Source: Haliscomenobacter hydrossis DSM 1100
GTDB taxonomy: Bacteria; Bacteroidota; Bacteroidia; Chitinophagales; Saprospiraceae
Reading direction: 5' to 3'
NCBI RefSeq assembly: GCF_000212735.1
Contig: NC_015510.1
Span: forward strand, 5,271,001 to 5,335,000
DNA: 64,000 bases
The notes below the pieces were generated by a model. It was given only the letters and a program-made list of their open reading frames with translations, was not told the origin of the DNA and did no database searches. This document shows, in pieces, positions 6,994-60,305 of this stretch (its first letter is position 1; every line of letters starts with the position of its first letter). Made by a program: the position numbers and the translations under genes.

Positions 6994-7071
6994 GGGTTCG
7001 GGGGTTTGTGGGTTCGAAAGTTCGGGGGTTAATCAACCCTGGAACTCACGAACCTGCAAACCCCCGAACCC
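6994..7071. repeat. TTCGGGGG-type long palindrome, yceI/tdk spacer
   Basis: The outer arms (6994-7016 and about 7049-7071) pair over 23 bp with two mismatches. Inside are AGTTC...GAACT and GGGTT...AACCC pairings, so the whole 78 bases can fold as one nested hairpin. It fills the gap between two convergent stop codons (6985 and 7074) and could act as a bidirectional terminator. Arms are built from an ~8-bp unit, GGGTTCGG. Confidence 0.85.
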
Positions 7072-7073
7072 GT

Positions 7074-7649
7074 TTATATCACCTTCCCCAAGTGGTAGCA
7101 AGTCCTACACCTCGGTTCATACACATTTTTCTCTCCCAACACGACAGTGGCTTCTTCCTCTGATAAGCGATAAGAATGGGTGGCCAGATTGCCACAATGC
7201 GGACAAATCGCATGTACTTTAGTAATGTATTCTGCAATCGCCAATAGGCTGGGCACAGGCCCAAATGGAGCGCCACGAAAATCCATATCCAATCCAGCCA
7301 CAATCACCCGAATGCCCCGCATGGCCAGTTTTTCACAATTTCGCGGCAAATCCAGGTCAAAAAATTGCGCTTCATCGATACCCACCACACTGACCCGTTC
7401 GGAAAGTGCCAACAATTGATCCGAATGTTCAATTGGCGTGGAGGGAATTGAATTGGCATCGTGTGAGACCACTTTAGACTCATCGTAACGTGTATCGACT
7501 TTAGGCTTGAAGATTTCAACCTGCTGATTGGCAATCTTGGCCCGCCGCAATCGGCGAATCAGCTCTTCGGTTTTTCCAGAAAACATCGAACCGCAAATGA
7601 CTTCAATCCAGCCGCTGCGGTGTCCTTTAAAATGTGGCTCAAGAAACAT
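7074..7649 (-). CDS. tdk: Thymidine kinase
   Basis: Type II thymidine kinase: phosphorylates thymidine with ATP in the dTMP salvage pathway, cytoplasmic. Visible features are the P-loop [14 protein letters not shown], the [11 protein letters not shown] Walker B region, the [11 protein letters not shown] lasso segment, and the zinc knuckle CPHCG...CRTC near the C-terminus. The start at 7649 gives 191 residues, the normal family length. An upstream in-frame ATG at 7742 would add 31 residues with no homology, so I reject it. The gene ends 2 bases from the palindrome. Confidence 0.95.
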
Positions 7650-7781
7650 TGTAGTGTCTTTTCGTTGGTGTTTACTTGTTCTGGCACGAAAATTAATCAA
7701 TTTAAAAAAGTCTGTCCAAATTTCTTTTTCGACCAATGCCACCCACCCTTATAGGCTTACCATTGAGCGACAAACCCATCT

Positions 7782-7806
7782 AAACGGGTTTGATGCCCGT
7801 TTTTTT
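7782..7806 (+). terminator. Orphan rightward intrinsic terminator or leader attenuator
   Basis: AAACGGG (7782-7788) pairs with CCCGTTT (7796-7802) across a 7-nt loop and is followed by more T, a textbook rho-independent terminator for the plus strand. No plus-strand gene ends before it, since tdk runs the other way. It therefore terminates either a small RNA or an untranslated leader of the M28 peptidase gene that starts at 7895. Confidence 0.55.
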
Positions 7807-7894
7807 CCTTATCTTTAATGTAGTTTTTTTTTACCATTTTTTAAAGCCTCCAATCTGCAGCAGCAATTGGGGCAAAACCAATTAAAACCTGAGT

Positions 7895-9472
7895 ATGATT
7901 ATGAAGAAGCTCTCCTTATTGTTGTTGTTGGCTGTGGCAACAAGCCTATCCTTAATTGGCCAAGATGCCCCCAACCCTACGCTCAATACCGCCATCCGCA
8001 AACATGGCCTTGAAAAAAGCAAGGTCATGGACATTGCTTCCTGGATGTGTGACGTCTATGGCCCCCGTTTGACGGGATCACCCATGCTGGACAAAGCCAC
8101 AGACTGGGCCCAAAAAACCCTTAAAGATTGGGGCATGAGCAATGTGCACCTCGAAGCCTGGGGGCCTTTTGGACGCGGCTGGGAGTTTACGCACTTCGCC
8201 ATGCATGCTACCGCACCCAATTATTTCCCCATTATTGCCTATCCTAAAGCCTGGTCACCAGCTACCAAAGGGGTGCTTAGTGGTGAAGTAATTTACCTGC
8301 AAGCCGATGATGAAGAAGACCTGAAAAAATTAAAGGGCAAGCTGAAAGGCAAGTTCGTATTACTCGATACCATCCGCACCCTAAAAGAGTGGATGGACGC
8401 ACCAGCGAAACGTTATACTTCCGAAGATTTGTTGGATATGGCCAATGCCGCTGCACCAGGCCGCCGCCCTGATCGCGATTTCAACCGCCTGGGAGGTTTG
8501 TCTTTTAACCAAAAACTCTTCAAATTCATCATGGAAGAAGAGCCTTTGGCCGTGTTGGATCGTGGGTTTAAAGGTGACCTGGGTACCGTTTTTGTTACCG
8601 GAGCGCGGGCAGAAGAAGGTCGGGTTCAGGACCCCAAAGCCAAGGTTATTCCTCAGGCGACGCTTTCGGTAGAGCATTACAACCGCATTTTCCGCATGAT
8701 GCAAAAGGGCATCCCCGTGACGCTATCGATGGAACTCAAAGCAAACTACACCAACCCTGACGGGATGGAACACAACATCATCGCCGAAATCCCGGGAACC
8801 GACCTCAAGGATGAAGTCGTCATGTTGGGCGCACACTTCGACTCCTGGCACACGGGAACTGGAGCTACCGACAATGGTGCTGGTTCGTCCGTCATGATGG
8901 AAGCCGCACGCATCATCCTGGAAACCATCAAAGAAACAGGCATCAAACCACGCCGCACCATTCGTCTGGCCTTGTGGACGGGTGAAGAACAAGGTCTGTT
9001 GGGCTCACGTGGCTACGTCAAAGAGCATTTTGCCAATACCAGCCCCGAAGGAACCATTCAAAGCATCAAAGAAGCGGAACAAAGCAAAATATCGGGCTAT
9101 TTCAATCTGGACAATGGCACTGGAAAAATACGTGGCGTCTATCTTCAAGGCAATGCTGGGGTTTCACCGGTTTTCCGCGCCTGGTTGGATCCCTTCAAAG
9201 ACCTGGGTGCCGCTACCCTAACCCTGCAAAATACCGGAGGTACCGACCACCAGGCCTTTGATGCAGCGGGAATCCCGGGATTCCAGTTCATCCAGGAACC
9301 AATTGCCTACTCTACCCGCACCCACCACTCCAACATGGACAACTGGGATCACCTGGTGGAAGACGACCTCAAACAAGCTTCTACCATCATTGCTTCGTTT
9401 GTGTTGCATACCGCCATGCGGGATGAAAAATTGCCACGCAAAGCCACGGAGTTGAAGGCTGGAAGTAATTAA
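7895..9472 (+). CDS. Secreted M28 family zinc aminopeptidase
   Basis: 525 residues with a signal peptide (MKKLSLLLLLAVATSLSLIG). The N-terminal DVYGPRLTGSP motif and a PA-like insertion (about residues 110-290) precede the M28 catalytic part. Zinc and catalytic residues are visible: the histidine in GAHFDSWHTG, the aspartate in GATDNGAG, the glutamate pair in LWTGEEQGLLGSR, an aspartate in YFNLDNGTG and the terminal histidine in TRTHHSNMDNWD. It should remove N-terminal amino acids from peptides outside the inner membrane. A second ATG two codons in (7901) fits the signal peptide equally well. Confidence 0.93.
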   Translation: MIMKKLSLLLLLAVATSLSLIGQDAPNPTLNTAIRKHGLEKSKVMDIASWMCDVYGPRLTGSPMLDKATDWAQKTLKDWGMSNVHLEAWGPFGRGWEFTHFAMHATAPNYFPIIAYPKAWSPATKGVLSGEVIYLQADDEEDLKKLKGKLKGKFVLLDTIRTLKEWMDAPAKRYTSEDLLDMANAAAPGRRPDRDFNRLGGLSFNQKLFKFIMEEEPLAVLDRGFKGDLGTVFVTGARAEEGRVQDPKAKVIPQATLSVEHYNRIFRMMQKGIPVTLSMELKANYTNPDGMEHNIIAEIPGTDLKDEVVMLGAHFDSWHTGTGATDNGAGSSVMMEAARIILETIKETGIKPRRTIRLALWTGEEQGLLGSRGYVKEHFANTSPEGTIQSIKEAEQSKISGYFNLDNGTGKIRGVYLQGNAGVSPVFRAWLDPFKDLGAATLTLQNTGGTDHQAFDAAGIPGFQFIQEPIAYSTRTHHSNMDNWDHLVEDDLKQASTIIASFVLHTAMRDEKLPRKATELKAGSN

Positions 9473-9536
9473 TTTGTGCTGGATGGAACTTTTTGAAGTG
9501 AATCACAATTGATAATCACTCAAGTGACATTTTAAG

Positions 9537-9632
9537 CACAAAGGACACAAAGAAGGGCACAAGGGACACAAAGTTAGACGTTGACGACGCTCGCTCTTTG
9601 TGTCCTTTGTGCCCTTCTTTGTGTCCTTTGTG
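9537..9632. repeat. CACAAAGGA-type long palindrome
   Basis: Arms of 37 bp (9537-9573 and 9596-9632) match at 36 positions, the remaining one being a G-T pair, with a 22-nt loop rich in GACG. Each arm is itself a degenerate tandem array of CACAAAGGA and CACAAAGAAGGG-like units. A further flanking pair, AAGTGAC and GTCACTT, extends the symmetry outwards. It lies in the spacer between the M28 gene and the next gene. Confidence 0.9.
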
Positions 9633-9684
9633 TTAATAAATGCCGCATTGAGTCACTTTGATCACCTTATTAAGTTTCAAACAA

Positions 9685-10131
9685 ATGGACACCACCACCA
9701 CTATTACTGTATCTCCAAGCGAGATTGAAGAACTTGTTGCCGGTTTTAAAGACCACAGTCTACCCAGTGAGCGCTGGACCCACCAGGCCCACTTGATTGT
9801 CGGCCTCCACTTCGCCTACCATTTTCCTTTGGATCAGGCCATTTATTACCTGCGGGCAGGAATCATCACCTACAATGTAGCTACCGGGGGCAAAAACACC
9901 CACGAGCGGGGTTACCACGAGACAATTACCCAGTTGTGGGCACGTTTGTTGCAAGCATATGTGCGGGAAAAATGTACAGGATTGTCTTTGGCCGAAGCTT
10001 GCACGGCCTTGCTGAATAGTCCTTATGCCGAACAGGAGATCATGTTTCGGTTTTATTCCAAAGACTGCCTGTTTTCTATCGAAGCGCGGGCGCTATGGGT
10101 TGAGCCAGATCTCCAGCCCATTGCTTGCTGA
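9685..10131 (+). CDS. Conserved hypothetical protein of a widespread unnamed family
   Basis: About 148 residues from ATG 9685 (an earlier ATG at 9658 would start within the region after the palindrome). Recognisable conserved blocks are LPSERWTHQAHLIVG, then NTHERGYHETITQLWARLL and a C-terminal FYSKDCLFSIEARALWVEPDLQPI. I recall similar proteins in many phyla annotated as hypothetical. The conserved WTHQAHL and GYHET histidines could be metal ligands, but no function can be assigned. No signal peptide; cytoplasmic. It is convergent with exonuclease III, 14 bases apart. Confidence 0.8.
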   Translation: MDTTTTITVSPSEIEELVAGFKDHSLPSERWTHQAHLIVGLHFAYHFPLDQAIYYLRAGIITYNVATGGKNTHERGYHETITQLWARLLQAYVREKCTGLSLAEACTALLNSPYAEQEIMFRFYSKDCLFSIEARALWVEPDLQPIAC

Positions 10132-10145
10132 GGATTCCGAGTCCA

Positions 10146-10916
10146 TCAAACGTCTAATTCCACCAACACCGGACAGTGATCAGAATGTTCGGCTTCGTTC
10201 ATTTGGCGGGCCGAGCGCAGATTGTCGCGCAGATTGTCGCTGACCGATTGGTAATCGATCCGCCAACCCTTGTTGTTTTTGCGGGCACCAGCACGGAAAC
10301 TCCACCAACTGTATTCCACTTTATCGGGATTCAGGAAGCGGAAGGCATCGGTGAAGCCACTGTTGAACCATTTGCTCAACCACTCGCGTTCCTCTGGCAA
10401 GAACCCGGAAGAGTTTTTATTTCCTCGGGGATCGTGAATGTCGCGTTCGGTATGCGCAATGTTATAATCACCCAGAACGATCAACTTCGGGCGTTCTTTT
10501 TGCAGTTCATGCGCCCACTTGAAAAAATCCTCCAAAAAGACCATTTTGAATTCCTGGCGCACATCTCCGGTTGTACCGGAAGGAAAATAACAATTGAGAA
10601 TCGTGAGGTCACCAAAATCACTGCGCAAAATGCGGCCTTCATCGTCGTATTTGGCCATTCCACAGCCCGCAATTACCTGATCAGGCTCGCGCTTGCTGAA
10701 AGTCGCCACGCTACTGTAGCCCTTCTTTTGGGCAGAATGCCAGTAGGCATGATAACCCAAATCTGCAATGGGGGATAAATCGACCTGCTCAGGGCTGGCT
10801 TTGGTTTCCTGCAAGCAGATGATGTCGAATTGGTGTTCGCGCACCCATTCAGCCCAGCCTTTGTTGAGGGCAGAGCGGATGCCGTTGACGTTGTACGAGA
10901 CGAGTTTTAGAGACAT
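10146..10916 (-). CDS. xth: Exodeoxyribonuclease III
   Basis: 256 residues, full length for the EEP superfamily AP endonuclease. Motifs: SYNVNGIRSA at the N-terminus, DIICLQETKA (metal glutamate), GLNCYFPSG-like LNCYFPSG, the VLGDYNIAH catalytic block, WRIDYQ and the C-terminal SDHCPV with the catalytic histidine. It cleaves DNA at abasic sites and degrades duplex DNA 3' to 5' in base-excision repair. Single gene; the upstream spacer carries two small palindromes. Confidence 0.95.
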   Translation of the reverse strand: MSLKLVSYNVNGIRSALNKGWAEWVREHQFDIICLQETKASPEQVDLSPIADLGYHAYWHSAQKKGYSSVATFSKREPDQVIAGCGMAKYDDEGRILRSDFGDLTILNCYFPSGTTGDVRQEFKMVFLEDFFKWAHELQKERPKLIVLGDYNIAHTERDIHDPRGNKNSSGFLPEEREWLSKWFNSGFTDAFRFLNPDKVEYSWWSFRAGARKNNKGWRIDYQSVSDNLRDNLRSARQMNEAEHSDHCPVLVELDV

Positions 10917-10952
10917 GGTTTAAGGTGTATATATCATAGCTCCCTTTTCATT

Positions 10953-11010
10953 CCCACGACTAAAGTCATGGGGTGGGTGCTGTGTGGCCTCCCACGAATA
11001 AATTCGTGGG
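10953..11010. repeat. Pair of CCCACGA...TCGTGGG palindromes
   Basis: Two REP-like hairpins lie 17 bases apart. The second (10991-11010) is a perfect 9-bp stem, CCCACGAAT facing ATTCGTGGG. The first (10953-10973) is the same type with one mismatch. They fill the spacer between the xth start and the fpr stop. Confidence 0.7.
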
Positions 11011-11020
11011 TTGGCTTTGT

Positions 11021-11785
11021 TTAACCATACAATTCGGTGATGATCTGGCGCTTGTCGTATCCCAATTTATCATAGAGGTTGAGTACCGCTTCATCCACCA
11101 TATTTTGCCAGCCGCAAAGATAAAATTTTACATCGGAACGTGGTATGGCGTATTCATTTAGGTAAAAAGAATGGACATGCCCTGCCTGGACTTCAAAGGG
11201 GAACTGAGCAGGATCGAGGTTTTGCTCACGCGAAAGGGCTACCGAATAGCGAAAGTTTGGCAAGTGTTTTTGCAGCGCAACAAATTCCTCTTGGTAAAGA
11301 ACGCCTTCGGCCTGACGGGTACCAAAAATCAGGTGGAGCTTACGGTGAGGGATGTTGTGCGTGTAAATGTGTTGCAACATGCTCCGAAAGGGCGCAACTC
11401 CCGTGCCTGTGCACACCATCACCATGTCGTGATCGATGACCTCTGGCAATACAAATCCACCATCAGGGCCTTTAAAGCGCAACGTAGAGCCGACCGCGAT
11501 GTCGTCGAACAGGTACTCGGTAGCTTTACCTCCATCGAGGCGTACGATACAGAACTCCAATTGATTACTCTCCGCAGGCGCACTGGCAATGGAATAGCTG
11601 CGCCAGCGCTGTAGCCGTTTGTCTCCGATGGGTAAATCCATCGTTACAAACTGCCCGGCTTTGAAATTGAAGGCTTCCACAGCGGGTATTTCCACCCAAA
11701 AGCGGCGGGTAGTGGGGCTTTCGGACTGTATGTTGATGACGTTGGCGTCGTACCAGGTTGGCATTGTTTGCAGCGTTTTTTTCAA
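11021..11785 (-). CDS. fpr: Ferredoxin--NADP reductase (FNR-like flavoprotein)
   Basis: 254 residues. The FAD domain has the RSYSIAS motif that binds the flavin isoalloxazine and phosphate; the NADP domain has CTGTGVAPFRSM and HLIFGTRQAEGVLY, and the chain ends YDKRQIITELYG. This layout matches bacterial ferredoxin/flavodoxin-NADP+ reductases, which shuttle electrons between NADPH and ferredoxin. A second start at 11764 (MPTWYD) is equally plausible. It follows the mevalonate operon on the same strand by 48 bases and could be co-transcribed; NADPH use by that pathway makes this sensible but not proven. Confidence 0.88.
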   Translation of the reverse strand: MKKTLQTMPTWYDANVINIQSESPTTRRFWVEIPAVEAFNFKAGQFVTMDLPIGDKRLQRWRSYSIASAPAESNQLEFCIVRLDGGKATEYLFDDIAVGSTLRFKGPDGGFVLPEVIDHDMVMVCTGTGVAPFRSMLQHIYTHNIPHRKLHLIFGTRQAEGVLYQEEFVALQKHLPNFRYSVALSREQNLDPAQFPFEVQAGHVHSFYLNEYAIPRSDVKFYLCGWQNMVDEAVLNLYDKLGYDKRQIITELYG

Positions 11786-11833
11786 TAACCGTACAAAGTT
11801 AAGCTTTGTTTATATCTGGACTAAATTAAGTAT

Positions 11834-12751
11834 TTATAACACCATTTCCTGATACCTCAGCACCACCTCAAATCCTTTATTTTGAAAATAATTTTTGGTT
11901 TCCTGCTCTTCCCTATTGCTGGTGACCAACACAAAATCACCTCCCCAGGCTCCCAGGGATTTGACCTGTCCCCAATAATCGGCAAACCACAATTCTTGTG
12001 CACGAGTTAAATCCAAGGTACTTGCAACCAGGTTTTCATGCCTTTGGATACAGGACTCAAAAGCTTCCAGTGTGGCACAGGCGACGAACTCCAATGTCAA
12101 TTCACTGGCCTGCTCAATGGCATCAGCTGGTATTTTCCCCAAAGCCCGATAATGTTGAATGCCCTCCCGACTGTTTTGTTTTTTTCCCAAATACACAAAA
12201 TAAAGTTGATTGGCAAAGGGAGGCTGAAAAACGACTTTTTGCGCCGTTTTGTTTTGGTACAAAATCGGCCCCGAAGCCTGAGCACAAGCCAGATCATAAC
12301 CCGAACCACCGAAAGTTTCCTCCAGCAATGTATAAGGATTCACTGCGGTCAAATCCGCCAAAAAGCTGATCAAGGTTGAGCTGGTACCCAAACCCCAATG
12401 CCTGGAAAAACCCAGTTGGGTAGTGATGGTGCAGCCAGCTAATTCATCCAAAGCGAAATTAGAGCGCAAAAAAGCTTGCCGGATAACTTGTTGTAAACGT
12501 TGCGCCGGCGCCATTTCACTATATTCCAGAATGACTAAACCGGGAAGGTCATATGCTGCGCTAAACCACCTGCTTCCATCCACATCGTAGCTCTGCCAAC
12601 TCAATCGATCGGCAAGACCTGCACTGATGGAGAATTTTTGTCCCATGTGCGTGGGCAAGGCCAAAGCCAGGGCGCCATCCAGCACGAAGTATTCGCCAGT
12701 AAGCAATAATTTCCCTTGAGCTTGGTAACTTTTGCCGATGAATTGGGACAT
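11834..12751 (-). CDS. GYDIA-type GHMP kinase of the mevalonate cluster
   Basis: 305 residues, GHMP superfamily. Seen: the N-terminal GKLLLTGEYFVLDGALALALP strand pair, the ATP loop HWGLGTSSTLISFLA and the diagnostic GGSGYDLACAQASGP block, close to the GYDIA signature of a Bacteroidota subfamily found beside HMG-CoA reductase. It presumably phosphorylates mevalonate, phosphomevalonate or a related alcohol; which one cannot be read from the sequence. Only 7 bases separate it from hmgR, so it is the last gene of a three-gene operon. Confidence 0.88.
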   Translation of the reverse strand: MSQFIGKSYQAQGKLLLTGEYFVLDGALALALPTHMGQKFSISAGLADRLSWQSYDVDGSRWFSAAYDLPGLVILEYSEMAPAQRLQQVIRQAFLRSNFALDELAGCTITTQLGFSRHWGLGTSSTLISFLADLTAVNPYTLLEETFGGSGYDLACAQASGPILYQNKTAQKVVFQPPFANQLYFVYLGKKQNSREGIQHYRALGKIPADAIEQASELTLEFVACATLEAFESCIQRHENLVASTLDLTRAQELWFADYWGQVKSLGAWGGDFVLVTSNREEQETKNYFQNKGFEVVLRYQEMVL

Positions 12752-18050: not shown

Positions 18051-19236
18051 TCATAAAGTTGTTCTGGCCTACAGCGGTGGGCTGGACACCTCTTTTTGTA
18101 TCCTTCACCTTACCAAAGACAAAGGATTGGAAGTTCATGCGCTCACTGTAGATACGGGTGGTTTTAGCGCTGAACAATTAAAAACGATGGAAGAACGCGC
18201 CCTGCAATTGGGTGCCAAAAGTTTCCGCGTGGCCAATGCGCTGCACGATTATTACGACCAGTGTATTCGCTACATGGTTTTTGGAAACGTGTTGCGCAAC
18301 AACACCTATCCTCTATCGGTAAGCGCTGAACGCATGTTCCAGGCCATTGAAACGGCCAAATATGCCCAGGAAATTGGTGCTGGTGCAGTGGCACACGGCA
18401 GTACCGGGGCGGGCAACGACCAGGTTCGCTTTGACCTGGCCTTCAACGTCCTGGGACAAAACTTGGAAATCATTACGCCCATCCGCGACATGCAGCTTTC
18501 CCGCCAGGCGGAAATTGACTACCTGATCGAGCATGGCTACAACTGGAACTGGGAAAAAGCCAAATACTCCATCAATCAGGGCATTTGGGGTACGAGTGTT
18601 GGTGGGGCAGAGACCCTGACTTCGCAAAAAGCACTCCCCGAAGATGCTTATCCGACTCAATTGACGGAAAAAGATCCCTCCATCGTAGAACTACAATTTG
18701 AAAAAGGAGAACTGCAGGGCGTGAATGGCCAAAGCTTTGTCCACCCTACGGAAGCGATTCAAGCCTTGCAAAAATTGGCAGGGCCGTATGCCATTGGGCG
18801 CGACATCCACGTGGGCGATACCATTATTGGCATCAAAGGCCGGGTGGGATTTGAAGCAGCCGCACCGCTCATCCTCATCAAAGCACATCACTTGCTGGAG
18901 AAGCATACCCTCACCAAGTGGCAACAATATTGGAAAGACCAAATGGGCAACTGGTACGGCATGATGCTGCACGAAGCCCAATTCCTCGATCCGGTGATGC
19001 GCAACATCGAAACTTTTCTCGCCGATACGCAGGAACACGTTTCAGGCAAAGTTTGGGTAAAACTGATGCCCTACCGCTTCGAACTCCAGGGCATTGAGTC
19101 CCCCAACGACTTGATGAATTCCGCCTTCGGGCACTACGGCGAAATGAACAAAGGCTTTACTGGCGAGGATGTGAAAGGGTTTACGAAGATCTTGGGGAAC
19201 CAGACGAAGATTTTTCATTCCGTACATAAGAAATAG
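18043..19236 (+). CDS. argG: Argininosuccinate synthase
   Basis: 397 residues from ATG 18043, which overlaps the GNAT stop (ATGTCTAA). PP-loop VVLAYSGGLDTS, STGAGNDQVRF for aspartate and citrulline binding, WGTSVGGAE and a C-terminal tetramerisation region. It joins citrulline and aspartate with ATP to argininosuccinate. In this lineage citrulline comes from deacylation of the product of the carbamoyltransferase encoded three genes downstream. The protein ends HSVHKK, and the last G of its TAG stop is the first base of a TTCGGGGG palindrome. Confidence 0.96.
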   Translation: MSNHKVVLAYSGGLDTSFCILHLTKDKGLEVHALTVDTGGFSAEQLKTMEERALQLGAKSFRVANALHDYYDQCIRYMVFGNVLRNNTYPLSVSAERMFQAIETAKYAQEIGAGAVAHGSTGAGNDQVRFDLAFNVLGQNLEIITPIRDMQLSRQAEIDYLIEHGYNWNWEKAKYSINQGIWGTSVGGAETLTSQKALPEDAYPTQLTEKDPSIVELQFEKGELQGVNGQSFVHPTEAIQALQKLAGPYAIGRDIHVGDTIIGIKGRVGFEAAAPLILIKAHHLLEKHTLTKWQQYWKDQMGNWYGMMLHEAQFLDPVMRNIETFLADTQEHVSGKVWVKLMPYRFELQGIESPNDLMNSAFGHYGEMNKGFTGEDVKGFTKILGNQTKIFHSVHKK

Positions 19237-19325
19237 GGTTCGGGGGTTCGGGGGTTCGAGGGATAGAGCATTGCGCTTGATAACCCCCGAACTTTCGAAC
19301 CCCCGAACCCCCGAACCCTCGAACC
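19236..19325. repeat. TTCGGGGG-type palindrome filling the argG-argC spacer
   Basis: The element begins with the last base of the argG stop (TAG-GGTTCGGGGG) and ends at the base before the argC ATG, so it is the whole spacer. The left array (19236-19264) and right array (19282-19325) are inverted copies built from GGGGTTCG units; the core lacks the GAGCGAAG motif present in other copies. Confidence 0.9.
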
Positions 19326-20286: not shown

Positions 20287-20380
20287 GGTTCGGGAGTTCG
20301 GGGGGTCGAAGTTAGTGGTCGCCGAGCGAAGTCGAGGCGTCGCTAACTTCGAACTCCCGAACCCTCGAACCCCCGAACCC
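20287..20380. repeat. TTCGGGGG-type palindrome in the argC-argD spacer, with GAGCGAAGTCGA core
   Basis: GGTTCGGGAGTTCG (20287-20300) pairs perfectly with CGAACTCCCGAACC (20350-20363), and TCGAAGTTAG (20306-20315) with CTAACTTCGA (20343-20352). The 27-nt centre contains GCCGAGCGAAGTCGAGGC. It starts 5 bases after the argC stop and ends 8 bases before the argD start. Confidence 0.9.
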
Positions 20381-47476: not shown

Positions 47477-47585
47477 AATTTTTTTTGCCACAAATTCCAC
47501 AAATTTTCACAAAAAAACACACAAATGTAGGCCCGAGAGGGCCTAATATTTGTGCCCAATTTGTGGAATTTGTGGCAAAAAAATT
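47477..47585. repeat. CCACAAATT-type long palindrome with AGGCCC core
   Basis: Arms 47477-47505 and 47558-47585 pair over about 28 bp with one A-length difference. Nested inside, CACAAAT pairs with ATTTGTG and AGGCCC with GGGCCT across GAGA. It starts 5 bases upstream of the DUF1330 ATG and ends 36 bases from the stop of the previous leftward gene (47621). Confidence 0.9.
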
Positions 47586-51772: not shown

Positions 51773-51824
51773 TTAACTTCAACACCTGCGCCGTCACATT
51801 TTGTTAGGGCAGCTTCGCTGCTTA

Positions 51825-51963
51825 TTTTTTACCACGACGAAACGACGGCACGACGAAACGACGTTAGCTGCCGCTACAACACGACGCATGGCGTCGTGTC
51901 CAATGAGCGCGTAGCGCGCAGAAACGTCGCGACGTCGTGCCGTCGTTTCGTCGTGGTAAAAAA
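51825..51963. repeat. CACGACGAAACGACGG-type long palindrome
   Basis: Arms 51825-51855 and 51933-51963 are a perfect 31-bp inverted match; the left array is two 16-bp CACGACGAAACGACGG units. The 77-nt interior carries ACGACGC-ATG-GCGTCGT (7-bp stem) and CGCG-TAG-CGCG hairpins. A small GCAGC-TTC-GCTGC hairpin sits just outside at 51809-51821. Confidence 0.9.
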
Positions 51964-52006
51964 CGATTTGGCGCAGCCGAATCAAAAAAAATCGTCGAGT
52001 TTAATT

Positions 52007-53055: not shown

Positions 53056-54804
53056 ATGCGTTACATGAACATCTCCCAAACCGTTCTAATCAGCCTGAGC
53101 GTTTTTTTCAGCTCTTGTATACGAGATTCAAAAGACAAATTGCCCGATGTAGATTTTAAGCGGACCGATAATACGGTGGTCGTGCGGATGGAAAGTGATG
53201 CCGATCGCTTGAACACGCTGCTTACCCAAAGCCAGTACGGCCGGATGCCTTCAGATTTGGCGCAGCTCAATTTGATGACTTACAACGATTCCCTCGAATT
53301 GATTCCCTATATGGTCAAGGGTCAACCAGAAATCAAAGACCTGCCCAACAACGCAGTGAGTTATACCTTCGAGATGCTGGATGAAGCAGTATGGGACGAC
53401 GGCAAACCCGTAACCGGACATGATTATTTGTTTACCTTAAAAACCATCCTCAACCCCAAAATTGAAGGAGTGTTGGGTCCTTTTGTGGAGGAAATCAAGG
53501 ATGTACAAGTTGACGCGAAAAATCCCAAGCGCTTTACCGTGGTGATGAGCCCCAAAACAATTTATTCGCTGGATTACGCCACAAACTCGTTTTCAGTGAT
53601 ACCCCAGCACATCATGGATCCCAAGGGTTTGATGAAAAGTATTCCACTGGCCGATTTGATCGATCCGGCCAAAGCTGAGGCGCTGGCGAGCAATCCCAAG
53701 ATTGTTGAATATGCTGAATTGTTCAGTTCCCCAGCGTATTCCAACGACCCCAAATACCTCGTGGGTTGTGGTCCTTACCGCATTGAATCCTGGACTCCCG
53801 GCGAAAAAATTGTGGTGAAAAAGAAAAAAGATTGGTGGGGGGATAAATTGGCCCAAACCAACCCGCTGTTGACGGCTTACCCGGACGAGATTATCTTTAA
53901 AGTGATCATCGATCCGGCTGCGACGACGGCGGCATTGAAAAATGAAGAAATTGATGTCACCAACCGAATTAACCCGGAGGATTTTTTAGCGCTGCAAAAA
54001 AACAAAGCAGTATCGGATCGTTATGCTTTTCACAATCCAGCCACGATGGCTTATTACTGCATTCCGGTCAATGCCCGCAACCCAAAACTGGCCGACAAAA
54101 GAGTACGCCAAGCGCTGGCTTACGCGATTGATGTGGATGAAATCATCAACGAAATTTACCTGGGCTTCGCCGAAAGAATTGCCAGCCCGGTTTCCCTAAC
54201 CTCTCCCGATTACAACAAGAAGCTCAAACCCATTCCATTTGACATCAACAAATCCAAGGCATTGTTGGCAGAAGCAGGTTGGAAAGACAGCAACAGCAAT
54301 GGCATTGTGGATAAGGTGATCAATGGTAAAAGCACCGAACTGAGTTTGAATTTCCTTTACGCTGCAGGTAAAGAAACCTCACAACAATTGGCTTTATTGA
54401 TTCAAGACAATGCCAAAAAAGCGGGCATCGACATCAAAATTCAAGCCATGGATGGCCGGGAAGCAATTGGACGTTGGGCGACTCATGATTTTGAGCTATT
54501 GAGTGCTGGCCGGGGCATTGCCCCCATTTGGTCGCCCGAACAGAATTGGCGTACCGATGCCGACAACCGCAGTGGCTTTGGCAATGCCGAAACCGATGCC
54601 TTGATCGATAAAATTCCCCTCACGTTTGACCCCAAAAAACGCCGGGAAATGTACCATCGACTGCAAGAAATCATCTTTGACGAGCAAGTCGAAATCTTCT
54701 TATTTGCCCCCAAGGATTGTATCGCCATCCACAAACGTTTCTCGGCGGAGCCAGTTTCCAATTCGCCGGGGTATGCTCCCTCGGAGTTTAAGCTGAAAAA
54801 GTAA
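53056..54804 (+). CDS. Peptide-type ABC transporter substrate-binding lipoprotein
   Basis: 582 residues, lipobox FFSSCIRDS. SBP_bac_5 layout: SYTFEMLDEAVWDDGKPVTGHDYLFTL, GCGPYRIESWTPGEKIVVKKKKDWWG, RVRQALAYAIDVDEIINEIYLGFA and PLTFDPKKRREMYHRLQEIIFDEQVEIFLF. It captures oligopeptides or related solutes for the two permeases that follow. It may start at ATG 53065 instead. A palindrome starts 3 bases after its stop. Confidence 0.92.
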   Translation: MRYMNISQTVLISLSVFFSSCIRDSKDKLPDVDFKRTDNTVVVRMESDADRLNTLLTQSQYGRMPSDLAQLNLMTYNDSLELIPYMVKGQPEIKDLPNNAVSYTFEMLDEAVWDDGKPVTGHDYLFTLKTILNPKIEGVLGPFVEEIKDVQVDAKNPKRFTVVMSPKTIYSLDYATNSFSVIPQHIMDPKGLMKSIPLADLIDPAKAEALASNPKIVEYAELFSSPAYSNDPKYLVGCGPYRIESWTPGEKIVVKKKKDWWGDKLAQTNPLLTAYPDEIIFKVIIDPAATTAALKNEEIDVTNRINPEDFLALQKNKAVSDRYAFHNPATMAYYCIPVNARNPKLADKRVRQALAYAIDVDEIINEIYLGFAERIASPVSLTSPDYNKKLKPIPFDINKSKALLAEAGWKDSNSNGIVDKVINGKSTELSLNFLYAAGKETSQQLALLIQDNAKKAGIDIKIQAMDGREAIGRWATHDFELLSAGRGIAPIWSPEQNWRTDADNRSGFGNAETDALIDKIPLTFDPKKRREMYHRLQEIIFDEQVEIFLFAPKDCIAIHKRFSAEPVSNSPGYAPSEFKLKK

Positions 54805-54806
54805 TA

Positions 54807-54956
54807 GGGCTCGGGGTTCGAAGGTTCGTAGTTCGAGGGTTCCATCGGTCGCCGAGCGGAGCCGAGGTGCCCGATGGAACCCTCGAACCCCCGAACCCTC
54901 GAACCCTCGAACCCCCGAACCCTCGAACCCTCGAACCCCCGAACCCCCGAACCCTC
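54807..54956. repeat. Largest TTCGGGGG-type palindrome, between SBP and permease genes
   Basis: Inner arms CGAGGGTTCCATCGG (54834-54848) and CCGATGGAACCCTCG (54871-54885) pair perfectly over 15 bp around a 22-nt centre containing GAGCGGAGCCGAGG. The right array runs on for a further 70 bases of CGAACCCCCGAACCCT units. It starts 3 bases after a stop and ends 12 before the next start. Confidence 0.92.
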
Positions 54957-54968
54957 AATCCCTCTCCC

Positions 54969-56408
54969 ATGCTTCGCTACTTTCTCAATCGTATCCTTTT
55001 GCTTGCCCCAACACTCCTGGTTGCACTGGTGTTGACCTTTGGGTTGAGTCGATTGGTACCCGGCGATCCCGTGGAGCAGGCGAATGAAGATGACCTCGAA
55101 AAATCTACCCAAAAGGAAGCGGAATTGCTGCGGATGTATCGGCGCAAGTCGGCTCGGATGGGGTTGGACAAACCCGTATTTTACTTCAGCATTCAGCCCG
55201 CAGCCTATCCCGATACCTTGTATAAAATCCCCTTCCGCAATCGGCGGGAAATGCTCATTGCGCTGTTGCGGCAAAATGGCAACTGGCCAGCCGTAGAGCA
55301 GTATTTGGTAGAAATTGGCAACTTCAAAACTGGTTTGCAAAAGTTACCCGATTCCCTCCGTTCGGAAGCGCGCAGCAACCTGGCCCAAGAGATCAACGAC
55401 CTACAATTCACTGCGGACTTCTCGGTTGCGCAGGCTCAATTGCAGACGATGGGTGGATTGGTGCAAAAAGATCCAGACTTACAACAAGGAATGGGCGGTG
55501 CTTACACTCAACTGCTGGAATCATTCCAATACTTACAAGCCCATCCACAAAAAGTGAAATTGTATCTCCCGGCCTTCAAGTGGCATGGTTTTGACAATCA
55601 ATTTCAGGACCTTTTGTCTGGCTACCTGCGGGGGGACTTGGGTTTGTCGTACAATGACGGTAAACCAGTGAATGCAAAAATCGGACGAGCGTTGGTCTGG
55701 ACGGTCTTGCTCAATGTTTTTGCCTTACCCATCGCTTATTTTTTGGCCATCTTTTTTGGGGTACGCATGGCCGTGGGCAAAGGAGGGCGTTTTGATCGCC
55801 GGATGAACAATGTCCTTTTTGGCTTGTACGCCTTGCCTGCATTTTGGGTAGCATTGGTGCTTTTGGTCGTTTTTTCAAATCCCGATTGGGGCATGAATTT
55901 CATCAGCATTACCGGGATGATGGATTTGGATAAAAACTCGTCCTGGGGCGAATGGATCAGGGTAGGGGCGCGGCAGTTGATTGTGCCGATCATTTGCCTG
56001 ATTTATCCGGCCATGACGGTATTGGCCCGCCAGATGCGCAGTTCGATGATTGTAGCCTTGAACCAGGACTTCGTGCGCACCGCCCGAGCCAAGGGTTTGA
56101 CGGAAAAAGAAGTCATTTGGAAACACGCTTTCCCCAACGCAGCTTTTCCGCTGATCGCCTATTTTGGTTCGCTCTTGCCGGAGATGGTGACGGGTTCAAT
56201 TTTACTGGAGAATATTTTCAACGTCCCCGGTATGGGACGTTTGTTGATTTATGGGATGGGTACCCAGGATTGGCCAATCGTTTTTGGCATCATGATTTTG
56301 GGGACACTCTTGAGCATCATCGGACTGTTGTTTGCCGATTTGGCCTACGCCTGGCTCGATCCACGGGTACGTTTTGGTGCTGAATCCAATCCAATTGCAC
56401 AAGTATGA
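54969..56408 (+). CDS. DppB/OppB-type ABC permease with large extracytoplasmic insertion
   Basis: 479 residues from ATG 54969. An in-frame ATG at 54867 lies inside the palindrome and would add 34 repeat-encoded residues (NPRTLEP units), so I reject it. One membrane helix (FLNRILLLAPTLLVALVLTFGLSRLVPGDP) is followed by about 200 extracytoplasmic residues, then the conserved permease core ending EKEVIWKHAFPNAAFPLIAYFG (EAA-type loop), a helix series and LADLAYAWLDPRVRFG. It forms the peptide importer with the next permease. The insertion is much longer than in E. coli DppB. Stop overlaps the next start (ATGA). Confidence 0.92.
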   Translation: MLRYFLNRILLLAPTLLVALVLTFGLSRLVPGDPVEQANEDDLEKSTQKEAELLRMYRRKSARMGLDKPVFYFSIQPAAYPDTLYKIPFRNRREMLIALLRQNGNWPAVEQYLVEIGNFKTGLQKLPDSLRSEARSNLAQEINDLQFTADFSVAQAQLQTMGGLVQKDPDLQQGMGGAYTQLLESFQYLQAHPQKVKLYLPAFKWHGFDNQFQDLLSGYLRGDLGLSYNDGKPVNAKIGRALVWTVLLNVFALPIAYFLAIFFGVRMAVGKGGRFDRRMNNVLFGLYALPAFWVALVLLVVFSNPDWGMNFISITGMMDLDKNSSWGEWIRVGARQLIVPIICLIYPAMTVLARQMRSSMIVALNQDFVRTARAKGLTEKEVIWKHAFPNAAFPLIAYFGSLLPEMVTGSILLENIFNVPGMGRLLIYGMGTQDWPIVFGIMILGTLLSIIGLLFADLAYAWLDPRVRFGAESNPIAQV

Positions 56409-57664
56409 GCAAAAAACAAGTTAACGCAGGTTATTGGGCCAATGTTTGGCAACGCTTCCGCAGCCGTCCTGCGGGTCGTTTGGCCCTGCGCAGCTTGAGC
56501 GTTTTTGTCCTGGTGGCTTTTTTGGCCCCTTTTGTTGCCAATGAAAGACCTGTTTACGCAAAAATGGAAGGACGTACTTATTTTCCTTTGTTTCAAGGCG
56601 TGTTGGTTGATTTGGGTTGGCGTTCCTGGGACGCCAGATTGCTTCCGGCTGAAGATTGGCTGGACAAAACTTACGACAAAGTATGGTACACCCTCATCCC
56701 TTATTCCCCTGCTTCCATCGACCACCGCAACCTTAATGCCCGTGGGCCATTTGAACGGCAGCGCGTAGAATCTTTACGTTTTCGGCATTGGCTAGGCACC
56801 GATAAAACGGGGCGCGATGTGGCCGCCGGAATGCTCCACGGCACCCGCATGGCCCTGTGGGTCGGTTTGGTCGCCATTGGGGTGGCCTTGTTTTTTGGTC
56901 TTTCTTTGGGCGGCTTGGCGGGATACTTTGGTGATCAGGGCTTGGTGATCCGCAAATCTACGCTGGCGATTTGGGCACTATTTGCACCTTTGAGTCTTTT
57001 TTATGTAGTTTATTTGCCAGGCTTGTCCAGTGAACCCAGCTGGCAAACTCAGGTTTTGATACTATTGGTATACTTGATCACGCCGCTGATTTTGGCGATG
57101 CTGCTGAGCCGGATTTTTAGCCGATTTTTGCCAAAACTAGGTCAAATTACCCTGCCTTTAGACACCCTGTTGATGCGCTTGCTCGAAGTTGTGGACGCCA
57201 TACCGGCCACCATTCTGGTGTTGGCCTTGATTGCGACCATGGAACAGCCCGATACCACTTACATAATGGTGGTGGTGGGGGTGGTGGGTAGCGCATCAGT
57301 GGCGCGCTTTGTACGGGCCGAGTTTTTAAGGGTGCGCAAACAGACCTATATGGAAGCGGGGCGGGCCTTGGGTTTTGGCCATTTTCGGCTCATTTTTCGA
57401 CATGCTTTGCCTAATGCAGTTGGGCCGCTGCTGGTACTGCTTTCGTTCAGCATGGCGGGGGCCATTTTAACCGAATCCAGCTTGTCGCTGTTGGGAATTG
57501 GAGCAGCTGACAGGGTCACCTGGGGTTCCATTCTGGGGGGATTACGTGGTCAACACGAGATTGAATGGTGGCTGGCATTTTTCCCGGGGATGGCTATTTT
57601 TTGTACGGTACTGACCTTTAAATACTTGGGTGAGGGCTTGAGCGAGGCTTTGGGGGAAAAATAA
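56405..57664 (+). CDS. DppC/OppC-type ABC permease
   Basis: 419 residues, start overlapping the previous stop (ATGA). N-terminal helix and a periplasmic stretch ending HWLGTDKTGRDVAAGMLHGTRMAL, the usual DppC signature. Core: LLEVVDAIPATILVL, QTYMEAGRALGFGHFRLIFRHALPNAVGPLL (EAA loop), then ESSLSLLGIGAADRVTWGSILG. About 60 residues between helices (FGDQGLV to QVLILL) are extra relative to short DppC proteins. No ATPase genes follow, so the ATPases must be encoded elsewhere. Confidence 0.92.
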   Translation: MSKKQVNAGYWANVWQRFRSRPAGRLALRSLSVFVLVAFLAPFVANERPVYAKMEGRTYFPLFQGVLVDLGWRSWDARLLPAEDWLDKTYDKVWYTLIPYSPASIDHRNLNARGPFERQRVESLRFRHWLGTDKTGRDVAAGMLHGTRMALWVGLVAIGVALFFGLSLGGLAGYFGDQGLVIRKSTLAIWALFAPLSLFYVVYLPGLSSEPSWQTQVLILLVYLITPLILAMLLSRIFSRFLPKLGQITLPLDTLLMRLLEVVDAIPATILVLALIATMEQPDTTYIMVVVGVVGSASVARFVRAEFLRVRKQTYMEAGRALGFGHFRLIFRHALPNAVGPLLVLLSFSMAGAILTESSLSLLGIGAADRVTWGSILGGLRGQHEIEWWLAFFPGMAIFCTVLTFKYLGEGLSEALGEK

Positions 57665-57806
57665 TCCACATCTATAGACTTGTAAATAAATTGAACGTTT
57701 CCCCTCCTCAAGTGTAGATGAAAAAAATTATTCCGACATAGGGGTAATTTATTGGCCGTTGCATCTACTAATCAATTATTCATTATTACATCATCACCGG
57801 ACTGTT

Positions 57807-60188
57807 ATGAAACTTCTCGTCACCACAGGGAGCATGCTACTGCTGTGCCTATCCCTGACTGCCCAAGCCAACCTGAATGGCAAACTGCAAGATGAAAACC
57901 GCGCAGCCATTCCTTACGCCAATATACTCCTGTTGGAGTCCAACGATTCAAGTTTGATCAAAGCCGCCATTTCCAATGACGATGGCAGTTTTGAAATCAA
58001 AGACATCCCCACGGGTAAAAACTATCTGCTGAGGGTGGTGATGTTGGGTTTTACCGATCATTTCCAAAAAGTTACTGATTTTAAAGAAAACCTTACGCTG
58101 AATACCATTTCATTACATGCGGATGTAAAAACTTTAGCCACCGCGGAAGTCACTGCCCGGAAACCCTTTTTGGAGCAAAAAGCCGGAACCATGATCGTCA
58201 ATGTAGCCAACAGCATCACCGGAGCTAGCGGCAGTGCCCTGGATGTACTGCGCAAGGTGCCGGGCATGATCGTTGTCAATGACCGCATCAGTTTGGCTGG
58301 TCAGCAAGGCCTTTCCATCCTCATCGACGGGCGTCCGACGCAGTACATGGACATGCAAAGTCTGCTGAAAGACATGCCCTCCGCCAACATCGACCGCATT
58401 GAAGTGATCAGTCAGCCAGGGGCGCGTTTTGACGCACAAGGGACTGGAGCCGTACTCAACATCATCCTCAAACGCAACATGAAACTGGGGCTCAACGGCA
58501 CCGCTACCCTTGGGGCAGGCAAAGGCCGCTTCTGGAAATACCGGGGCTCGGGCACGCTCAATTTCCGCAATGAAAAATTCAACTTTACCAATTTGGTAGC
58601 CTTCAGTCACCGCAGTTGGTACCAGGGTTTGAGCCTGGATCGGGTGGTGGGTACTGAATTGTACCAGCAATACAATTTTCAACCCGGCTTGCCGTACTCA
58701 CTCAATGTCAAGTCGGGGGTAGATTATTATTTGGACAAAAACCAAACCCTTGGCTTGTCGGTAAACGCATTGGGAACTACCAATCAGTCTACCAATGAAA
58801 ATACCACCACCATTTTGACGGATTTGCAAAAAGCCCGCGAAGAACTCTTGACCACCAACAAAACCGAGCGCCGAACGGGCCTGATCAATGTGGATGCCTA
58901 CTACGAATTCAAACTCGATACCAGCGGACAAAAAATCAATGCCGATGTGAGTGTGAACCGCTATGGCCGCGATGTGAGCAATTTGCTGCAAACCACCTTG
59001 CGGATAGGAGAGGGGACTTACCCCAATCGCCGCCAGGAACAACCCGGAAATACGGAAATCGAAGCCTACCGCATCGATTATACCAAACCCTTTGGCAAAA
59101 AACTGAAAATCGAAACAGGGCTTAAATACAGCCACGCGGTAGTGGACAATGACCTGCAGGCCAATATCTTTAGCGACAACACCTGGGTGAATGACCCCAC
59201 GTTGAGCAACCACTTCATTTTTACAGAAAACATTTCGGCAGCTTATGTGTCCTCCAATTTTACGCTGGGTAAAGTGGAAGGTCAGGCGGGTTTGCGCTAT
59301 GAAAACTCCGTTTCTACGGGCTATTCGGTTACGGTAGACAGTACCCAGGAGCGCAGGATCTCCCGTTTGTTCCCCAGCCTGAGCCTTTCTGCGCCGCTGA
59401 CCGATAAGCTTGGATTGGCCCTGGCCTACAGCAACCGCATCAACCGCCCCGGTTACAGTTCGCTCAACCCTTTCGTTCGGTTCCTTGACCCCTATACCTA
59501 TGAAAAAGGCAATCCTTTCCTCCGCCCCGAAATTACCGATTCCTACAAAGTTTCTTTGACCTATGACAAACAGCCATTTTTCAACCTGGAGTACAGCCGC
59601 ACCAACAACGTGATTCAGTTGGTGACCCAACAAGATGAAAGCACCGGGGTGGGTTTTGGCATGGACGACAACCTGGCTACGTTTGAGCGCTACGGTGGTA
59701 GTTTGTTCTTTCCCCTGGAGTTTGTGAAAAAACTGTCGGGTTACGGCGGGGTGATGGTGTTTTACAACCGCTACGAATCGGAGGTGTTTGCTGAGCAATT
59801 CAACAAAGGCCGCTGGAATGTAACGGCCTTTTTGCAGGGCACTTATACCTTGCCCAAGGATTGGAAATTTGAAATTGGCGGCTGGTACAATGGCCCGGGT
59901 ATCGAAGGGATTCAGATTGCTGAACACTTGTACAGTGTGAGTTTGGGTGTCCAGAAAAAAATCTTGAAAGAGCGCGGCAACCTTAACCTGAGTATGGACG
60001 ACATCCTCTTCCGCTACTGGCATGGCCGCATCGATCACGCCAACTTTGAAGCCAACATCCGCTCGGAATGGGAAACCCAAATTGTCAATTTGACCTTCAC
60101 GTACAATTTTGGGAACCAGTACCTGAACAAGGCGGCACGGCGGAGAAGTGGCGCGTCGGAGGAGCAGGGTCGGGTGAATGAGAAGTAA
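57807..60188 (+). CDS. TonB-dependent receptor-like outer-membrane protein, CarboxypepD_reg plus OMP_b-brl_3
   Basis: 793 residues from ATG 57807 (57759 is upstream of the signal peptide). Signal peptide ending LTAQAN, CarboxypepD_reg-like domain (about 22-105, LNGKLQDENRAAIPYANILLLES), plug-like domain (about 115-235, GSALDVLRKVPGMIVVNDRISLAGQQGLSILIDGRP and SQPGARFDAQGTGAVLNI), then the OMP_b-brl_3 barrel with NRINRPGYSSLNPFVRF. Similar in plan to the receptor at 3548. Follows the ABC importer genes by 142 bases and may feed the same substrate, which is unproven. Confidence 0.87.
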   Translation: MKLLVTTGSMLLLCLSLTAQANLNGKLQDENRAAIPYANILLLESNDSSLIKAAISNDDGSFEIKDIPTGKNYLLRVVMLGFTDHFQKVTDFKENLTLNTISLHADVKTLATAEVTARKPFLEQKAGTMIVNVANSITGASGSALDVLRKVPGMIVVNDRISLAGQQGLSILIDGRPTQYMDMQSLLKDMPSANIDRIEVISQPGARFDAQGTGAVLNIILKRNMKLGLNGTATLGAGKGRFWKYRGSGTLNFRNEKFNFTNLVAFSHRSWYQGLSLDRVVGTELYQQYNFQPGLPYSLNVKSGVDYYLDKNQTLGLSVNALGTTNQSTNENTTTILTDLQKAREELLTTNKTERRTGLINVDAYYEFKLDTSGQKINADVSVNRYGRDVSNLLQTTLRIGEGTYPNRRQEQPGNTEIEAYRIDYTKPFGKKLKIETGLKYSHAVVDNDLQANIFSDNTWVNDPTLSNHFIFTENISAAYVSSNFTLGKVEGQAGLRYENSVSTGYSVTVDSTQERRISRLFPSLSLSAPLTDKLGLALAYSNRINRPGYSSLNPFVRFLDPYTYEKGNPFLRPEITDSYKVSLTYDKQPFFNLEYSRTNNVIQLVTQQDESTGVGFGMDDNLATFERYGGSLFFPLEFVKKLSGYGGVMVFYNRYESEVFAEQFNKGRWNVTAFLQGTYTLPKDWKFEIGGWYNGPGIEGIQIAEHLYSVSLGVQKKILKERGNLNLSMDDILFRYWHGRIDHANFEANIRSEWETQIVNLTFTYNFGNQYLNKAARRRSGASEEQGRVNEK

Positions 60189-60191
60189 AAA

Positions 60192-60305
60192 GGGTTTGAG
60201 GGTTCGGGGGTTCGAAAGTTCGGGGGTTTCTGGACTGTTCGCCAAGCTGGTCACAGAGCGAAGTCGAAGTGGCCGAGGTGCGCGGTTCACGAACCCCCGA
60301 ACCCT
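60192..60305. repeat. TTCGGGGG-type palindrome between two convergent genes
   Basis: GAGGGTTCGGGGGTTCG (60199-60214) pairs with its complement near 60290-60305 over 16 bp. The centre contains GGTCACAGAGCGAAGTCGAAGTGGCC-like sequence with GGTCAC and GTGGCC arms. The right end overlaps the TAG stop of the leftward gene (60306-60304), so that gene also ends TAGGGTTCGGGGG, as argG does. Confidence 0.9.

Follow-up and report, generated by a model that had tools for sequence, protein, structure and literature searches.

Tandem-armed palindromes between genes of Haliscomenobacter hydrossis are best read as gene-less members of two REPIN-like mobile-element superfamilies without a known transposase

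REPINs, which belong to the repetitive extragenic palindromes (REPs), move as single-stranded hairpins and use RAYTs, transposases of the Y1 family. Here we describe palindromes of another kind, starting from a stretch of 64,000 nucleotides of the genome of Haliscomenobacter hydrossis DSM 1100 (contig NC_015510.1, positions 5,271,001 to 5,335,000; referred to as the window), in which eight spacers between open reading frames (ORFs) hold long inverted repeats with arms made of short tandem units. They are best read as REPIN-like, gene-less members of two mobile-element superfamilies that have no known transposase, and are probably non-autonomous copies of short elements whose full form is an IVP or a GxxExxY gene between inverted arrays. 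The IVP product is a four-helix bundle (TIGR02436/PF05635), and the GxxExxY product belongs to the PD-(D/E)XK nuclease family (TIGR04256). The resemblance to the REPIN/RAYT system is close: intergenic palindromes that occur in many gene-less copies avoid divergent spacers, and a cognate locus with a single gene carries the same arms. In contrast to that system, the cognate gene is IVP or GxxExxY instead of a Y1 transposase, the arms are tandem arrays with units of 7–10 bp, and the elements form two classes whose many families diverge.

Other described repeats share parts of this architecture. The intervening sequences (IVSs), segments of 23S rRNA genes that RNase III excises, contain a protein of the same family (PF05635/TIGR02436) between inverted repeats, and in Coxiella tandem heptamers (GACAGAT) lie just upstream of the S23 ORF; in the sections of that article cited here, the functionality and origin of IVSs are termed unclear, and a 1993 idea of Ralph and McClelland is cited, according to which the IVS ORF serves mobility (PMC4990558). 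IVP ORFs in rRNA insertions of the candidate phyla radiation (CPR) are termed functionally uncharacterised in the passage cited (PMC11270868). The palindromes of the window differ from IVSs in their location, which is in spacers between protein ORFs and not within an rRNA gene, in their inverted tandem arms and in their many gene-less copies. The short tandemly repeated repetitive (STRR) sequences of cyanobacteria are 7-bp repeats able to form hairpins, with a function called not known (PMC2670836, section cited); eight IVP genes of cyanobacterial plasmids sit between inverted, mostly heptamer arrays, whereas STRRs are described, in the sections cited, as repeats alone. In Xanthomonas and Nostoc, the quadruplex repeats GGGAATC and GGGGA[CT]T are also heptamer arrays that occur as inverted pairs (70 cases in X. 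campestris) and are under-represented between divergent ORFs, but the part of the report cited here finds generally no association with mobile elements (PMC4692102). MITEs (miniature inverted-repeat transposable elements) are similarly short, non-coding, inverted-repeat and multi-copy; our elements seem to depart from them in their tandem arms, in that no constant target-site duplication was seen by eye, and in that no parent transposase was found, Y1 being the sole transposase family searched. A search of the open-licence literature found nothing on six repeat strings, and no paper among the matches listed connects the repeats with an IVP or GxxExxY gene.

The long inverted repeats reported by the sequence-only reading of the window are present in all eight spacers, each of which beat all 300 dinucleotide shuffles (p ≤ 0.0033). 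Its description of the arms as tandem arrays holds for seven of them (period p ≤ 0.02 over the whole interval), and the period is not significant at 47477-47585 (p = 0.086); measured against inverted tandem arrays with a 7–10 bp unit, the window palindromes are inverted in 8/8 and periodic in 7/8. RNA fold z-scores range from -4.3 (at 60192) to -14.0 (at 9537), and for each palindrome none of 200 shuffles folds as well as the native sequence. Stems had been put at up to 37 bp, which matches the 37-nt arms at 9537 in a gapless scan and is exceeded by the 41-nt arms at 51825. Nested central hairpins had been noted in several; the folds at 20287, 47477, 51825, 54807 and 60192 show either inner hairpins or a core that is itself structured.

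Palindromes of this form are not chance occurrences in the genome. A sample of 1.264 Mb of the 8.77 Mb genome (the window and 60 stretches of 20 kb taken at even spacing; assembly of 8,771,651 bases) contained 195 inverted-repeat clusters, compared with 10 in a mirror-repeat control. Tandem arms (p ≤ 0.02) are found in 85 of the 195, with a period of 7, 8, 9 or 10 in 71 of these 85. The four arm families distinguished previously are too few: about 15 can be recognized by eye in the sample, among them GGGTTCGG, GTTGAAAA, GTTGAGGA, GTTGATGAAG, GTGAAAA and TGACGAA, and further CACAAAGGA, CACAGATTCG, GCGGATTGA, AACGGATTGA, CACGACGG and others. We thus rejected the notion of four independent curiosities, as the sample holds many more families of the same form. 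Non-tandem palindromes of a different kind, linked to RAYTs, are intermixed among them. A palindrome occupies 143 of 568 spacers of 40–700 bp, and a tandem-armed one 65 of 568. Counting all kinds, palindromes occur in 86/343 co-directional, 49/100 convergent and 8/125 divergent spacers; tandem-armed palindromes alone occur in 22/100 convergent and 3/125 divergent spacers. Merely 11 of 186 palindrome midpoints fall inside ORFs of at least 100 aa.

Genes for GxxExxY and "four helix bundle" proteins often sit among short repeats, a lead that prompted us to search the whole H. hydrossis genome with the models PF13366 (GxxExxY) and PF05635 (IVP). All six strong GxxExxY matches and all eight IVP matches have adjoining short-tandem arrays, of many different units, as judged by eye. 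Three of the four arm types of the window recur beside such a gene: GGGTTCGG at the IVP locus L021 (L numbers are locus labels), CACGACG at the GxxExxY locus L011, and CACAAGG/CACAAAG at the GxxExxY locus L012, where the whole palindrome lies on one side of the gene instead of one arm on each side. The weak PF13366 matches L015-L017 are ORFs of about 540 aa with no tandem or inverted flanks. Over five genomes of the genus (H. hydrossis itself, G000, and four further genomes, G001-G004), with inverted flanks called by a fixed score cut-off, the gene lies between inverted repeats at 22/25 IVP and 14/20 GxxExxY loci, compared with 0/11 proteins with weak model matches and 3/139 random ORFs (G000 only). 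Control ORFs were preferred to a mismatched-pair null, which held near-identical loci (maximum 317). The gene copies with IVP thus share with IVSs an S23/IVP ORF inside inverted repeats, and the window palindromes are gene-less. The sequence-only reading had suggested one process behind the shared form; the form is indeed shared, but its unity is accounted for by two gene families for which this architecture is common ground.

In this explanation, a full element consists of a single small gene flanked on both sides by arrays of a 7–10 bp unit in inverted orientation, with arms nearly always of one polarity, and most arm families belong to two classes. Class I carries the IVP gene and arms such as GTTCGGGG, GTTGAAGA, GTGAAAA and GTCAGAA; its protein is related to S23, the protein of rRNA intervening sequences, with Avd as a more distant relative. 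One of three scanned IVP copies also matches the Avd model (3e-11, below the cut-off of that model), and related solved structures are 2rld and 2gsc. The latter is XCC0516; we take XCC to stand for X. campestris. Class II carries the GxxExxY nuclease gene and arms that mostly follow C[AG]CNNAG every 8–10 bp. The GxxExxY residues D68, E78, K80 and Q92 are invariant in 61/61 aligned sequences (75 readable). No sequence relative was found in the PDB at E ≤ 10; the predicted model (pLDDT 97) is nearest to the solved folds of Cas4 (4ic1) and lambda exonuclease (Foldseek, top E 4e-3, probability 1.00). We found no assigned role for GxxExxY or "four helix bundle protein" families, both of which are widespread.

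Some loci depart from the simple arrangement. At L136 (1277-1340 and 1974) and L133 (1369), the GxxExxY gene is adjoined by whole CACAAAG/CACAGAG palindromes centred on TTAG[AG]CNTTGACGA, an arrangement reminiscent of composite transposons. Gene-less copies may be internal deletions of gene copies; when such deletions were sought in the CACAAAG family, these two loci instead showed whole palindromes next to the gene. L121 (G001) is an ORF of 522-584 aa with an IVP N-terminus at its start and no inverted flanks. Its continuation resembles an ATPase that ends in a PD-(D/E)XK-like part, and the locus is possibly a fusion or an assembly artefact.

Sequence comparison indicates that the arms track the protein at unlinked sites. 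Protein identity correlates with arm similarity within each class (Mantel r 0.66 for 24 IVP and 0.67 for 14 GxxExxY loci, p 0.0005), and the correlation persists when one member of each syntenic pair is removed (r 0.61 for 19 IVP and 0.66 for 12 GxxExxY loci, p 0.0005). L121, L012, L134, L138, L140, L143 and L144, which have no arm pair or are partial or chimeric, were excluded. Across phyla the correlation is lower (r 0.21, p 0.0005, 48 GxxExxY loci). The polarity of the arms is fixed: counted with six unit patterns that overlap in part, it is 111 to 1.

This co-variation bears on the alternative that survives best, in which the IVP and GxxExxY genes are captured passengers and an unseen transposase moves all tandem palindromes. 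One architecture houses two unrelated proteins, and some GxxExxY genes adjoin whole palindromes in a composite-like manner (L136, L133, L012), both of which speak for passengers. Neither family is, to our knowledge, a known transposase family. A common mover, however, would predict neither that the arms track the protein within each class nor that the two classes differ in their kind of unit, and we regard the passenger explanation as unlikely.

Both classes extend well beyond the genus. A scan of one collection of species genomes yielded 579 GxxExxY loci, of which the best 80 formed our cross-phylum set (79 testable). By record titles, these 80 come from Bacteroidota, Planctomycetota, Chloroflexota, Cyanobacteria, Proteobacteria, Acidobacteria, Cloacimonadota, archaea (two metagenome-assembled genomes) and others. 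Significant inverted flanks are present at 62/79 loci, compared with 2/147 displaced intervals. At least two copies of C[AG]CNNAG, a motif framed after inspection of the same flanks in which it was then counted, occur in 52 of the 62 arms, mostly every 8–10 bp, where 0.2 are expected after shuffling. IVP matches are present in 116/148 genomes of the phylum, 113 of them above the cut-off. Matches on plasmids are mostly cyanobacterial, and at the eight plasmid loci examined (of 26 records) the gene always lies between inverted repeats (8/8, p = 0.005), whose arms are mostly heptamer arrays such as AGTAGGG, GTCAGAA and AACAGGG. Elements are also seen within operons (L287 and L291 on cyanobacterial plasmids, L286 and L309): IVP between cas6 and cas4 in two genera and between nrdB and nrdA, and GxxExxY between fabD and fabG in Sphingomonas, where a weak inverted flank was seen.

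The presence of palindromes varies between related genomes. Orthologous spacers were compared between the window and G001-G004, and between two sample stretches and G002 and G004. At palindrome-bearing spacers of H. hydrossis, the relative lacks a palindrome in 13 of 26 pairs, and in six of these 13 its spacer is at most 5 nt long. In the other 13 pairs, which have a palindrome in both genomes, the arm family (assigned by eye) is the same in one, a different tandem family in nine, and non-tandem in three. One spacer carries GTTCGGGG, GTTCCTGG and GTTGAAAA arms in three species, each directly after the same stop codon (by eye). The sequence-only reading had suggested a palindrome that rebuilds its arms; such a change of arm family at one site would fit replacement of the arms in place as well as several insertions at one position. 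The relative's spacer holds a palindrome in 13/26 pairs with one in G000 and in 6/30 pairs without (Fisher p 0.025), a weak enrichment because spacer pairs are not independent, and no proof of rewriting in place.

These spacers allow us to weigh a second alternative, that the palindromes are selected regulatory or structural spacers (terminators, mRNA stabilisers or quadruplexes) whose sequence is free to change. The avoidance of divergent spacers and the excess in convergent ones, the very stable folds, and the use of the same site by different families would all suit such a role, and the heptamer repeats of Xanthomonas and Nostoc have been proposed as G-quadruplexes (PMC4692102, section cited). 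Orthologous spacers, however, are often empty, six of 13 being no longer than 5 nt, and the genes inside elements are left unexplained. We consider this alternative improbable.

Filled, gene-less and empty alleles of the same site are found on Nostoc plasmids. In one operon, the spacer between genes A and B measures 3 nt in five plasmids and 420-602 nt in three, where it contains IVP and GTCAGAA-type arms (in one of the three, IVP is annotated as a shortened gene); a ninth plasmid has other content. Eight plasmids have an empty B-C spacer (-1 to 4 nt), and in one it is 505 nt long with a different IVP and AAGGGGA arms. Of the TraM-side spacers, two hold an IVP copy, one holds a gene-less palindrome and one a palindrome of another kind, and three are empty. 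Between nrdB and nrdA, one plasmid has a 497-nt spacer that includes an IVP gene, and a second plasmid has 40 nt. Together with the dispersed copies in sequence families and the empty orthologous sites of the genus, these alleles support the earlier suggestion of a mobile palindrome.

The two IVP copies at the TraM site, L292 and L306, are 89.8% identical over the region, and they differ by exactly one heptamer in one arm (6 vs 5 units), from which it follows that slippage acts on the arms. The sequence-only reading had proposed replication slippage, and this part of it stands locally; slippage cannot account for the dispersed copies or for the co-variation of arms and protein. The same limits apply to the view that nothing moves, that the palindromes arise in place by slippage (tandem arms) and template switching (inverted copy), and that the genes are bystanders. 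The one-unit difference between L292 and L306 and the differing arm sequences at orthologous sites are what this view would expect, but it is contradicted by unit families common to dispersed copies, by arms that co-vary with protein at unlinked loci, by the GxxExxY association across phyla (62/79 vs 2/147 among the best 80 of 579 loci) and by clean insertion polymorphism that includes a gene. We judge it very improbable.

Palindromes of the sample were also assigned by matching them to gene flanks. After removal of two of the 195 clusters for containing N, 193 palindromes were compared, of which 47 match IVP, 35 GxxExxY and 19 RAYT flanks; a random-stretch library used as control matched 24/193. 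Those matching IVP flanks are nearly all tandem (44/47), compared with 0/19 for RAYT. The RAYT set comprises seven Y1_Tnp matches in the genome, of which six formed the flank library, L285 (internal stop) being left out. Five of the seven loci (L279, L280, L281, L282 and L284) lie between inverted repeats (score ≥ 20) that are non-tandem palindromes, with TCGCGTAGCGACG.., CCCACGAATAAATTCGTGGG, GACCTCGGAGAGGTC and CCCCGAAGGGGTGACA at RAYT loci, and the CCCACG kind also occurs at orthologous spacers of relatives. As the RAYT-type palindromes are non-tandem, the REPIN/RAYT system of the same genome serves as an internal positive control. That the tandem palindromes are themselves REPINs moved by RAYT (Y1) transposases is scarcely tenable: the genome does hold seven Y1_Tnp matches, and the placement in spacers (86/343, 49/100, 8/125) resembles that published for REPs (PMC3733652, section cited), but RAYT flanks match a separate set of 19 palindromes of which none is tandem, no cognate Y1 transposase shares flanks with the tandem palindromes, and the tandem-unit patterns GGTTCG, GTTGA and CACNNAG are absent from all seven RAYT loci, so that we retain RAYT as the mover of the non-tandem palindromes.

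We infer that the IVP and GxxExxY proteins move the elements, and the route of copying proposed here is of the same standing. The nuclease residues and fold of GxxExxY, together with the family matches of IVP, lead us to propose that each protein would bind its family's own repeat unit while the element is folded as a hairpin or a cruciform. The class II protein would then cut, and the class I protein would recruit a host activity; the target of copying would be DNA that is single-stranded or nicked, in spacers of co-directional and convergent genes. A gene-less copy would depend on the protein encoded by its cognate full copy, much as REPINs depend on RAYTs. Array length would drift through slippage and the unit would drift jointly with the protein, and as a result families would diverge in sequence and not in form.

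Several observations weigh against gene-less copies of IVP and GxxExxY elements as the explanation. At the strict threshold, 92 of the 193 palindromes match no gene flank (28 of these 92 are tandem), and two of the eight H. hydrossis IVP genes (L019 and L024) matched no palindrome. The inverted repeat is below the cut-off at 6/20 GxxExxY and 3/25 IVP loci of the genus and at 17/79 cross-phylum GxxExxY loci. In the wider phylum, inverted flanks were found at 21 of the 30 best-scoring IVP loci by a gapped shuffle test (1/60 displaced intervals) and not at the other nine, and the strict score passes just 4/30, a difference which indicates greater degeneracy of the IVP arms at this level. Some class II arms (CGGAT and CGACG types) deviate from C[AG]CNNAG. 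For the GTTCCAGG family of G002 and G004, none of the loci found in these genomes is a gene-bearing copy; some families thus look orphaned. The co-variation owes much to close relatives (Spearman 0.25 for IVP and 0.45 for GxxExxY), and cross-phylum pairs under 70% identity give an r of 0.17. A constant target-site duplication was sought by eye and none was seen; three junction pairs gave 5, 3 and 4 nt, lengths too inconsistent to serve as a signature of mobility. One insertion in the Nostoc plasmids replaced about 40 nt (by eye). Foldseek returned nothing at E ≤ 0.001 for the GxxExxY model. We know of no catalytic activity of IVP. In the literature, S23p is seemingly not made in Coxiella, according to the section cited (PMC4990558). 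In Xanthomonas, the pattern is absent in the sister species at only 16% of heptamer sites, and loci near the repeats are called more stable in the section cited (PMC4692102); as most sites are common to two species, movement there would be slow.

The window palindromes, none of which has an assigned strand, illustrate this variety. The gene-less palindrome at 6994..7071 has GGGTTCGG arms of an IVP-type family whose gene-bearing copy, L021, lies elsewhere in the genome (fold z -9.5). At 9537..9632, a gene-less palindrome of GxxExxY type has CACAAAGGA arms (fold z -14.0), and a related palindrome adjoins the gene at L012; its ortholog in G004 keeps the arm family with the centre inverted (by eye). 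The centre of the window copy (position 9574) is the same TTAG[AG]CNTTGACGA as in the L136 and L133 palindromes. The gene-less palindrome at 19236..19325, in a spacer of co-directional genes, has GGGTTCGG arms; the orthologous spot carries GTTCCAGG arms in G002, GTTGAGAA in G001 and GGTTGAGGAA in G004, and the G003 spacer is 5 nt long. At 47477..47585, a palindrome with CCACAAATT arms (fold z -10.3) looks to be of GxxExxY type from its CAC start, and no matching gene copy was found in the H. hydrossis genome. The gene-less palindrome at 51825..51963, in a convergent spacer, has CACGACGAAACGACGG arms and inner hairpins (z -12.2); it is of GxxExxY type, with gene copy L011, and no palindrome occupies the orthologous site in G001 (spacer 147 nt) or G004 (spacer 1 nt).

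The remaining three gene-less palindromes have GGTTCG arms enclosing a REP-like core (CGCCGAGCGAAGTCGAGGCG and variants). At 20287..20380 the arms are GGTTCGGG and the core is CGCCGAGCGAAGTCGAGGCG. At 54807..54956 the arms are GGTTCGAGG, the right one far longer; the orthologous spacer is 2 nt long in G001 and carries GTTCCAAG arms in G002. The weakest of the eight is at 60192..60305, with GGGTTCGG arms (fold z -4.3); behind the same gene, G002 and G004 carry a GTGAAAA palindrome. A similar REP-like core lies inside GTTCCAGG arms of G002, and a second core, GGCTACCGCAGCGACTTTGAC..GCGGTAGCC, is common to GTTGAGG, GTGAAAA and GTTGATG arms. Cores and arms may be exchanged as modules. By eye, GxxExxY-type palindromes (window 51773-52006, L011, L014, and L109, there at 2138-2376) often start with a T-run plus AACCAC or CACC and are flanked by small GC hairpins resembling inward-reading terminators; the GxxExxY-type element may target the T-run of terminators. 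Elsewhere in the window, a short non-tandem hairpin at 2404-2448 (AAGGTAAGGTGAGGCCAAAA), directly behind an ORF, is probably a plain terminator.

With so many of the sampled spacers occupied, the elements shape operon spacing on a large scale. More broadly, and as a tentative proposal, DNA mobility without a canonical transposase could be at work, in which an Avd/S23-like bundle and a Cas4-like nuclease each drive palindromes, the unit co-evolves with the protein, arms are rewritten in place such that a site keeps its palindrome but changes repeat family, and STRRs, Xanthomonas heptamers, rRNA IVSs and the CAC-AAG repeats of many phyla form one system. The reading of the palindromes as gene-less copies may also account for the puzzling heptamer repeats found in cyanobacteria and for insertions within bacterial rRNA genes. 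If true, this would provide a genetic cause for cyanobacterial heptamers, for rRNA intervening sequences and for two protein families for which we found no assigned role, and the mobility function that was suggested for the IVS ORF in 1993 would become directly testable.

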